Position numbers and translations under genes: made by a program. DNA of 37,621 nucleotides from an uncultured Bacilli bacterium (GTDB taxonomy: Bacteria; Bacillota_I; Bacilli_A; RF39; UBA660): NCBI GenBank assembly GCA_947631035.1, contig CANRJW010000010.1, positions 1-37,621 of the forward strand, given 5' to 3'. This document shows, piece after piece, positions 1 through 3,491 of this stretch (the first letter of the stretch is position 1; every line of letters begins with the position of its first letter). The notes beneath the pieces were generated by a model. The model was not told the DNA's origin and made no database searches. It saw only the letters and a program-made list of their open reading frames with translations.

Positions 1-1674
1 GTATCAAAATTACTTAAATCTAATTCAGTTAATTGAAGGCCTGTATAAATTGATCCAAACATTTCACCCATATTTGTTACATTATTCGTTACAAAATTTT
101 TACCTAGAATCAATGTTGTTAGACTGTTTAAACCACAAAACATTCTGAACATAGTATCTACTTTACTCGTATCAAAACTACTTATATCTATTTTTTGAAG
201 ATTTGATCTACCATAATAACTTTCGAACATGTTGCTCATATCCGTAACATTACTTGTGTCAAAATTATTTAAATTTATTTCTGTGATATTTGGCATATCG
301 CGAAACATTCCGTTCATATTGGTTACTTTACTTGTATCAAACGAACTTAAATCTAATTTTTTAAATCTACTACCTCCAAACATTCCACCCATATCTTTTA
401 CTTCACTAGTATTAAAATTATTTAAATTTATTTCTGTGATATTTGGCATACCGCGAAACATTCCGTTCATATTGGTTACTTTACTTGTATCAAACGAACT
501 TAAATCTAATTTTTTAATTCCAGTTTCGGCAAACATAGCACCCATATCCGTTACTTCACTGGTATTAAAATTTTTTAAATTTATTTCTTGCATTTTACTT
601 AACCCTGCAAATATCTGATTCATTGTTGTAACGTTACTGGTATCAAAATTACTTAAGTCTAACTTTGTAAATCCAGAATTAGAAAACATATGGGCCATAG
701 CCGTTACATTTCTTGTGTCAAAGTTTTCTAAGCCTTCAATTGTTGTGGCTTTAGTAAAGCCATGAAAGGCACTCCAACAGTCTGGATTAGCTTTAACTCC
801 ACCCTTACCTTGTAAATAAGCAATATATGTTCCACCCTCTTGAGGTACAAGATAACTCATTACACTTCCGTCACTATTAGCACTTTCATCATTTTTAATG
901 ACTCCTTCACCTGTTTTGGGTTCTAATTTATTTTCAATAACAATCTTCGTTATATTTTCTTTTTCTTTCCACATTCCTTTATCTTCATAATAATTTATAT
1001 ATCGCAGTGTTCCAGACTCTGCAAATACATCTTCTTTATAATCTACACTTAAGGTGATTTTTCCATTCCAAGTGGCATTCATTGTTTCTTCTATGGCTGG
1101 TGTATCTTCATGCATAAATACTAATAGTTTAAATTTTCTACTTTCTTTTTCTTTTAATGTAAACGTATATAAATTATAAGCATTAATGGCTTCTGGTATT
1201 ACTTTATTGTCATTATTTAATGGGTTACTAACCAACTTATAATCATTGCTTGAATATATTGGCATATTTTTTACAATATCTTTTTCTCCATCATATAAAA
1301 TTACTCCTATATATTGATCATCTAATCTTTTGGTATCCGTAATAGGAAGACTTTCTAAATTTATTGTTGCACTTGCTAAATCATTACATTGGTTGGTCAC
1401 AGTAAATACATAGGGTTTTGCTGTTGGAAAAAAATAATTATATAGTTCTTCTTTTGTCAAAGGATGAGTACTATTTAAAGCAATTCCTTCTCCATCCTCA
1501 AATGTTATCTTTAAACATGCAGAACTCACTAAATTTTCTTCTTCTTGCTTTATTGTTGATGTCCAATAGGCGTAGGTTACATTTATTATTAAAGTTAAAA
1601 GAAAGATTAATAAAATGAAAATTTTAATACCTTTCTTATTTAATACCCCCCCCCCGAATATTACTTTTTATCAT
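1..1674 (-). CDS. BspA-type leucine-rich-repeat surface protein (partial, frame broken at a poly-G tract)
   Basis: The gene runs off the window at base 1. The start is ATG at 1672-1674, with GGAGAG (1683-1688) eight bases upstream. With the 10 G residues seen here, that frame ends after about a dozen codons at 1636-1638. With 9 G it opens into a frame that stays open to the window edge. That product would begin MIKSNIRGG, then a hydrophobic signal/anchor segment, then AYWTST. A roughly 270-residue N-terminal region follows. After it come at least nine repeats of about 25 residues of the type LDLSxFDTSxVTxMxxMF, the BspA/DUF285 leucine-rich repeat of surface adhesins. The role in adhesion or host contact is inferred from the family. 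It could be a pseudogene rather than a switched-off gene, but no second lesion is visible in the 1.6 kb that can be read. Confidence 0.85.
261..517. repeat. 104-bp in-frame tandem duplication inside the LRR gene
   Basis: Bases 261-364 and 414-517 are the same over 104 bp except for one base (298 T, 451 C). The offset is 153 bp, which is 51 codons or two LRR units, so gain or loss of a copy would keep the frame. Other units in the gene have diverged much more at DNA level, so this copy is recent or maintained by gene conversion. Confidence 0.85.
1646..1655. repeat. 10-bp homopolymeric G tract (candidate phase-variation switch)
   Basis: Ten consecutive C on the + strand (G on the coding strand) lie 17 bases downstream of the A of the start codon of the LRR surface gene. 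Coding-strand G tracts of this length are very rare in AT-rich sequence and none other occurs in the window. Counts of 9 or 12 open the reading frame and 10 or 11 close it. Confidence 0.9.
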
Positions 1675-1700
1675 TTTTAAATCTCTCCATTCTTATCTAA

Positions 1701-1796: not shown

Positions 1797-3491
1797 CTAG
1801 TTTTTATTAATTTTTATAGTTATATGATAAATGTCTTCCAAATCAGCTTCTTCACATTCTACAACAAATCCACGATTTTCTAGGTCACTTATAGTGTCTC
1901 TAACTATATTAATGGCTGTTTTTAAATCTCTACCTGCTAATTCTTCTTGTTTTTGTTCATAATCAGGTTCTAAAGTAACAATACTATCTAAAGGATCAAC
2001 AAGTGGTTCTTCTACTACAGGTTTTATTTCTTCTATTGTATTATTTATAATAGGTTCCTCTACTATTTCATTTTCCACTTTTTCATCTTCATCTGTAAAG
2101 AAAATAGATTTAAAAGGTTTTATTTCTTCTGATGAATTGTTTTCTTGAATTGTTGTATCAACATGTGGAGTTAATTCTTCGATTTGATTTTCTGTTGGAT
2201 TTTCTAATATTTGAGCAGATTCAACTGGTATTATTGGTTCAACTAAATTTTCAACTGGATTGGCATTTTCTAAATTTTCAATTTCACTCGTATTACCTTG
2301 ATTTTCTAAAGTTGTCTCTAAAATTGGAGTTTCGTTATTTAGAGTGTCTGTATTATTCGTTGGTTCTCCTACAATTTCATTAACAGCTTGTTCTAAATCT
2401 TTAAAATCCATTTCATTTTCAAATTTGTCTTCGTTGTTTAAATTTTGGTTGTCTATATCTCCTAAATCATCTAAAGTTTCTATATTATTATTCGTAGCCA
2501 CATTTTCTTCAACTGGAATCGCTTCAGTATTAAATATAGAATCTATAGAATTTTGATTTTCTTCTTTATTCAAAATAGATGTATCTTCTTTTGGTGGTTC
2601 TTCTACAAGCTCTAAAGTAGGAGTTGTAGTAAAAGCATCAATATCCACTGGATCATTAACATTCATATTGGCTTGTTCGTCTTCTAAGAAATTAAAGAAT
2701 TTATTTTGATTTTTAACAGGTTCAACTGTTTCTTCCTTTTTTTCTTCTTTTATTCCACCTTCAGGTATTAACATACTTGCAACATCATGTGGGGGTCTTT
2801 CTACTACGATGTCTTCAGCACTGGAAACAATTTTATCGATATTGGGATTGATGTCTACTAGTTTAATTTCTTCGCCATCTTCTCCACCATTTTCTTGTAA
2901 TTTTTTAAGTTCCATATCAAGTTGTCTTACGGTTAATCTTTCGTCGATAATTCTTTTTAACCATTTCTTTTGGTCTTCTTTATCTAAAGAAAGTAAGGCT
3001 CTTGCATGACGTTCAGAGATTTTTTCATTTAATAAGGCTTCTTGGACTTCTTCGTCTAAGTTTAATAATCTTAATTTATTAGCAATTGAACTTTGAGAAA
3101 CACCCATTTTATTGGCAAGTTGTTCTTGGGTTAAGTAACCACGATCTAATAAATTTTTATAAGATTTTGCTTCTTCAATTGCCGTTAAGTTTCTTCTTTG
3201 AATATTTTCCACTAGAGCCACCTCTGCACTTTTGTTATCGTCGATATCTGAAATAATTACGGGAACTTTGGTAAGACCTGCTTGAGTTGCAGCTTTATAT
3301 CTTCGCTCTCCAGCAATAATTTCATATTTATCACCAAGTTTTCTTACGACTAAGGGTTGAATAATTCCATGTTGTTTTATAGAGTCAGCCAGTTCATTCA
3401 TGCCTTCTTCATTAAAAGAAAGTCTTGGTTGAAAACGATTTGGCAAAATGTCTTCAATTGGTATCTCTAAAATATTTTTCTCCGTATTCAT
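1797..3491 (-). CDS. noc: Nucleoid occlusion protein Noc with a giant acidic linker
   Basis: ParB-family CTP-dependent DNA clamp that in Bacilli keeps the Z-ring off the nucleoid. Residues 8-110 are the ParB/CTPase domain (GERRYKA 61-67, ENIQRRNL 95-102). Residues about 115-200 are the helix-turn-helix. Q133, K139 and R161 match positions that favour the Noc site over parS. The last 48 residues match the Noc C-terminal dimerisation domain. B. subtilis Noc is about 283 residues; this one has 564 because residues about 200-515 are an inserted Glu/Asn/Pro/Thr-rich, probably disordered acidic linker. The N-terminal amphipathic membrane helix of B. subtilis Noc is absent, but KFFNFLEDEQ (264-273) and FKSIFFTDEDE (460-470) resemble it. 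It is last in the mnmG-rsmG-noc run, as in Bacillus. The alternative, Spo0J/ParB, is less likely on the C-terminus and specificity residues. Confidence 0.85.
   Translation of the reverse strand: MNTEKNILEIPIEDILPNRFQPRLSFNEEGMNELADSIKQHGIIQPLVVRKLGDKYEIIAGERRYKAATQAGLTKVPVIISDIDDNKSAEVALVENIQRRNLTAIEEAKSYKNLLDRGYLTQEQLANKMGVSQSSIANKLRLLNLDEEVQEALLNEKISERHARALLSLDKEDQKKWLKRIIDERLTVRQLDMELKKLQENGGEDGEEIKLVDINPNIDKIVSSAEDIVVERPPHDVASMLIPEGGIKEEKKEETVEPVKNQNKFFNFLEDEQANMNVNDPVDIDAFTTTPTLELVEEPPKEDTSILNKEENQNSIDSIFNTEAIPVEENVATNNNIETLDDLGDIDNQNLNNEDKFENEMDFKDLEQAVNEIVGEPTNNTDTLNNETPILETTLENQGNTSEIENLENANPVENLVEPIIPVESAQILENPTENQIEELTPHVDTTIQENNSSEEIKPFKSIFFTDEDEKVENEIVEEPIINNTIEEIKPVVEEPLVDPLDSIVTLEPDYEQKQEELAGRDLKTAINIVRDTISDLENRGFVVECEEADLEDIYHITIKINKN

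Follow-up and report, generated by a model that had tools for sequence, protein, structure and literature searches.

A poly-G tract as a putative translational switch of a PARCEL-repeat protein gene, and a possible default-OFF surface repertoire in an uncultured genus of Bacilli

The window analyzed here, the whole stretch of 37,621 nucleotides from an uncultured Bacilli bacterium (genome G000; 1.43 Mb in 82 contigs, 92.7% complete; 30% GC in the window), begins within a gene whose start is out of frame with the long reading frame that follows, and a run of guanines lies between the two. This raises the question of whether the run marks a defect or a switch. Lying on the minus strand, the gene has parB (1797-3491) on one side and the contig end on the other. 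The initial annotation had described a well-formed start with a good promoter behind it, and direct reading of the minus strand confirmed these elements: a GGAGAG ribosome-binding site (1688-1683), a gap of eight bases, an ATG start codon (1674-1672) and, six codons past it, a tract of ten guanines (1655-1646), an assembled length that is a consensus and may hide minority lengths. Upstream, a -35 box TTTACA (1729-1724) and a -10 box TAAAAT (1706-1701), the latter preceded by TG, are separated by a 17-bp spacer and match at 10 of 12 positions, although DNA this rich in AT often contains promoter-like matches by chance (shuffles gave a mean of 1.9). A G10 tract is expected by chance 0.02 times per window, and the next-longest run of G or C measures five bases. 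In the G10 form, translation ends after 12 codons at an in-frame TAA (1638-1636), as had been annotated. The alternative frame 3' of the tract is free of stop codons for 547 codons (1643-1), up to the contig end, where its 3' end is missing; it is joined to the start codon whenever the tract is a multiple of three (9 or 12). In other words, a change of one unit in tract length moves the gene between the open and the closed frame.

In the open (ON) frame, the predicted product consists of a short N-terminal tail with the glycines of the tract, a hydrophobic segment acting as putative membrane anchor or signal segment (IKIFILLIFLLTLIINVTYAYW, 1628-1563), a non-repeat domain and a series of PARCEL/DUF285 repeats (773-1) that runs off the contig. 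The SipW-type signal family TIGR04088 matches weakly (E=0.055; 13.7 bits, cut-off 19). The earlier description of a frame continuing through a signal segment and 1.6 kb of BspA-type repeats is thus correct for the open frame, which extends to base 1 of the window, and for the hydrophobic segment, but not for the extent of the repeats, which occupy only the last ~770 bases. Their assignment also had to be revised, as they match PF03382 (E=3e-58; 195 bits against a curated cut-off of 25) and TIGR02167 (E=6e-60; 198 bits against a curated cut-off of 30), while the BspA leucine-rich repeat family PF13306 is absent from the Pfam matches of the window gene and of its paralog L059. The only leucine-rich repeat matches in that search are to the generic families LRR_8 and LRR_4, below cut-off in the window gene. 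The BspA-type label was therefore rejected, and the translation identifies the predicted product as a membrane-anchored PARCEL/DUF285 repeat protein.

The window gene is not a single case but one of a genome-wide set of tract-bearing genes. The genome contains 59 tracts of at least nine guanines, whereas a first-order model derived from the window predicts ~0.75. Two of these, in the window gene and in L059, carry the leader type of the window; ~48 carry a second, commoner leader, MNxFKKNLPTxxNSRLGGG..., with the tract ~15 codons past the start. The leader CTCCCAACC...GTCGTCTGGG is present in 49 copies. The remaining tracts are single cases; one belongs to an acyltransferase, another to a protein with InlB-type repeats, and some lie in promoter spacers. 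In the 45 leader copies with a readable tract and following sequence, tract length is 10 in 37, 9 in four, 11 in three and 8 in one. Both wrong frames are shut within four codons in all 45 copies, and the right frame extends over a median of 538 codons without a stop; as the copies share descent, their common frame does not amount to 48 independent observations. Including two genes outside the leader family, 41 genes have a start, a tract and an open reading frame of at least 100 codons, and 38 of these are OFF and three ON. In two full copies with nine guanines, L046 and L053, reading continues without interruption into full proteins, so that the ON form is visible without any assumption. The ectodomains following leaders and tracts are of surface types, namely DUF285/PARCEL, glycine-rich ALK_LTK_GRD and InlB-type repeats. 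A search of solved structures with the large leader family gave no match.

Several further features of these loci were recorded. In 27 leader genes (L046, L053 and 25 others), the C-terminal 60 residues combine a conserved core with a hypervariable end, PWxxRGGxxxxGxxxGVFAF...FRIVLAP. This domain resembles a C-type-lectin-like display domain, in a genome where no reverse transcriptase was found, and has a weak match to FGE-sulfatase in one member only. A small open reading frame like MKSLKEIRKSSGLSQKELAKKIGVTQQQYS, an XRE-type regulator, is situated just past the stop codon, overlapping it or nearly so, in L046, L062, L074, L075, L042, L056 and L068, and is possibly co-switched with the surface protein. 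Two clear promoter-spacer tracts, L066 (C28:15354) and L077 (C52:7062), have the arrangement TTGACT-8 nt-G10-TATAAT with an 18-bp spacer, which nine guanines would reduce to 17. In L039 (C2:28289-28299) and L081 (C63), the tract is contained in a tiny leader peptide (MKNFSFY or MRIFNFY) directly before a gene of phage-like appearance that begins MAGN(G/N)S(I/L)QFLRG...; a PHROGs search with the first 60 residues of this protein gave no match. The G10 frame of L081 terminates at a TAATG that overlaps the next start, which suggests switchable translational coupling.

Tracts of at least nine guanines occur in all 22 species of the genus, ranging from 2 to 76 in each, based on one draft genome per species. 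Among the other 21 species, a strict pattern detected leader genes of the same type in 11, and 37 leader tracts in these have lengths of 7 (one), 8 (four), 9 (two), 10 (27) and 11 (three), corresponding to 34 OFF and three ON. The strict CTCCCAACC pattern matched none of the 76 tracts of G123, another member of the genus. In G126, the ON length varies between copies (0, 1 or 2 modulo 3), yet most are at G10. This suggests a resting length set by the mutation process, with frame offsets that have mostly settled on OFF. A loss of mismatch repair was considered as the origin of the tracts and not adopted: mutS is present in 20 of the 22 species, including the tract-rich G123, and mutL is present in the genome of the window (C8:14409-15923). 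A search for mutS1 in the same assembly did not find it; the gene may fall in a gap of the assembly, or the lineage may be a mutator, and at 92.7% completeness no conclusion is drawn from its absence. Given the presence of mutS, the tracts of most relatives form where mismatch repair is probably active, and this may make switching slower, a point against the switch reading.

Slipped-strand phase variation, which the initial annotation had proposed, remains the best-supported reading, given that the device is found dozens of times in the genome and that tracts are present throughout the 22 species of the genus, with leader tracts of 7 to 11 and intact reading frames beyond them. We consider it very probable that the window G10 is a translational switch belonging to a default-OFF surface repertoire. 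The replicating polymerase would slip on the tract, homopolymers this long being known to be unstable, and add or remove one base or a few. With 9 or 12 guanines, the ribosome would pass through a short cytoplasmic tail and a few glycines into the membrane anchor and the PARCEL-repeat ectodomain (ON), and with 8, 10 or 11 it would halt within a few codons (OFF). The basis for this reading in the sequence is the layout, the frame arithmetic, the recurrence of the tract, the length differences between copies, the intact reading frames and purifying selection acting on both the window gene and L059. The slippage rate, actual switching within populations, surface exposure and the biological purpose are inferred.

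Amongst the rival explanations, one is serious, although we regard it as unlikely: the G10 form might not be OFF at all, if slippage of RNA polymerase or ribosome kept up a constant share of full-length product and the tract were held at 10 for that reason. The peak at 10 in both sets of leaders (37/45 in this genome, 27/37 in relatives) is what such a mechanism would leave behind, but the same leaders are also found with 7, 8, 9 or 11 guanines and an intact reading frame. Moreover, the copies in G126 need different lengths, so that G10 is not bound to one frame offset. A peak at 9-10 is also known from Campylobacter, where it is ascribed to mutational bias: lengths across the 5-81 poly-G loci per strain are mostly 9 and 10 (PMC6321876), and G8 tracts are prone to lengthen, G11 tracts to shorten (PMC8355987). 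In Bifidobacterium breve, such a tract was shown to slip during replication, the ON genotype being in the minority (PMC9187656).

An error of assembly or sequencing, with a true length of nine and a gene that is simply expressed, is very improbable. Homopolymers are error-prone, the assembly is apparently a metagenome assembly, and poly-G artefacts do exist in these data, as shown by the G50 run at a contig end in the sister-genus genome G071. The dozens of tracts are, however, placed at corresponding leader positions in several species, mostly in the interior of contigs, with lengths of 7-11 rather than open-ended. Errors would not put tracts 6-17 codons past start codons, and a one-base error at the window site would leave the tract itself standing. 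The G50 run (L152, G071:C24:21027), probably an artefact of two-color sequencing, calls for caution when counting poly-G in metagenome contigs. In the genome of the window, contigs C33 and C44 and those of L086/L201 end within leader poly-G, and some nine further tracts are no more than roughly 85 bases away from a contig end; the breaks arise because the leaders are shared, perhaps also because of length heterogeneity.

The gene might also be a decaying pseudogene frozen by the frameshift, as its consensus is out of frame and its 3' end is unassembled. The other contigs of the genome were searched for the missing end without finding it, and only the paralogous contig C21 matched well (94%). 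The sole close paralog, L059 on C21, likewise carries G10, with tract, flanking leader and promoter almost identical to those of the window gene; both promoter boxes are the same in the alignment, and the position of the ATG agrees. Its reading frame is intact over 848 codons. Between the two G10 genes, dN/dS is 0.23 over the whole comparison and 0.12 for the 200 codons that directly follow the tract, which points to purifying selection on the reading frames and therefore to expression at least some of the time. Such selection, as estimated from the two sequences, together with the 547 stop-free codons of the window gene itself, argues against a dead gene, a possibility the earlier annotation had raised and to which we assign hardly any weight. 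The length comparison for the window gene itself comprises one allele and one paralog, both G10, and a scan of IMG/VR with both leaders for the allele of another strain gave no match. Most species of the genus do not share the site downstream of parB, and besides the genome of the window only G129 and G131 have a poly-G leader gene there.

That a diversity-generating retroelement or recombination cassette is the system of variation and the poly-G a mere landmark is scarcely credible, and its retroelement form is largely refuted: the hypervariable ends of 27 leader genes do recall retroelement targets and the leaders are nearly identical between copies, but the window gene lacks that hypervariable domain, variation is not confined to one base type, and a search of the genome for the reverse transcriptase RVT_1 found none.

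Across the family, at least one tract was found in 65 of the 117 genera sampled. In the five tract-rich genomes sampled, most tracts lie between a -35-like and a -10-like box, forming promoter-like spacers of the type TTGAC..G9-11..TATAAT upstream of surface-type reading frames whose proteins have similar N-terminal anchors. A change in tract length would there shift promoter spacing, not the reading frame. Sister genera, in which such spacers are likewise the usual site, contain 35-46 poly-G tracts per genome (L119-L138 in G080, L139-L158 in G071, L159-L178 in G021 and L179-L188 in G060).

Returning to slipped-strand phase variation in the genome of the window, the ~48 genes with the other leader version would place varied ectodomains under the same kind of tract, nearly all of them resting at G10 and thus presumably OFF. 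The recurrence of the tract before ~50 other surface genes, almost all OFF, suggests that the cell probably carries a large repertoire with few genes ON at once. Each cell would then express a small, randomly changing subset, probably to counter host immunity, to resist phages or to attach. Taking the lineage as a whole, we lean towards the view that this uncultured gut genus possesses a standardized default-OFF antigenic repertoire, in which one poly-G leader cassette was copied before ~50 different surface proteins in the species of the window, with a resting length of 10 corresponding to the closed frame and few proteins displayed per cell, while related genera employ the same tract in the promoter spacer for the same class of protein. 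A whole genus of uncultured small-genome Bacilli seems to commit many genes to poly-G switching. This would account for the contig breaks at leaders and for gene callers possibly missing or splitting these surface genes, and it makes tract length in existing metagenome reads a testable gauge of commensal surface variation inside the host.

Switching by poly-G tracts is a textbook mechanism, described chiefly in pathogens and in a small number of cultured commensals. Multigene surface families whose copies all share one kind of repeat switch, as here, are represented by Neisseria opa and Mycoplasma gallisepticum vlhA, most copies of the latter being OFF; the opa repeat is CTCTT and the vlhA repeat is GAA upstream of the promoter, unlike the in-frame poly-G of the present genes. 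For Mycoplasma agalactiae, a poly-G switch in PARCEL genes was suggested earlier, and repeat type, tract base, tract position and proposed frameshift switch are all the same as in the window gene. That case concerns two genes of a mycoplasma with lipoprotein anchors, whereas the genes described here belong to non-mycoplasma Bacilli, have a putative transmembrane or SipW-like anchor and number ~50 per genome. The Campylobacter phasome shares intragenic poly-G tracts of mostly 9-10 at many loci, switched ON or OFF by frame (PMC6321876; PMC8355987), and the scale in the species of the window seems comparable to the richest of these phasomes. In Campylobacter, however, mostly unrelated genes each have their own tract, in contrast to one leader cassette before many surface genes and a strong OFF bias. 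The sortase-pilus G-tracts of the gut commensal B. breve also lie in the coding region and are OFF in the majority, with an ON minority that increases in the mouse gut, but they comprise two pilus loci with longer tracts, G11-G12 at one locus (PMC9187656). A non-exhaustive literature search returned no report of such a poly-G repertoire for this lineage. Taken alone, the window gene is probably a further case of the known poly-G switch; what looks new in comparison with these systems is the repeated leader cassette, the default-OFF bias, the scale, the spread through an uncultured Bacilli genus and the alternative between frame and promoter in related genera.
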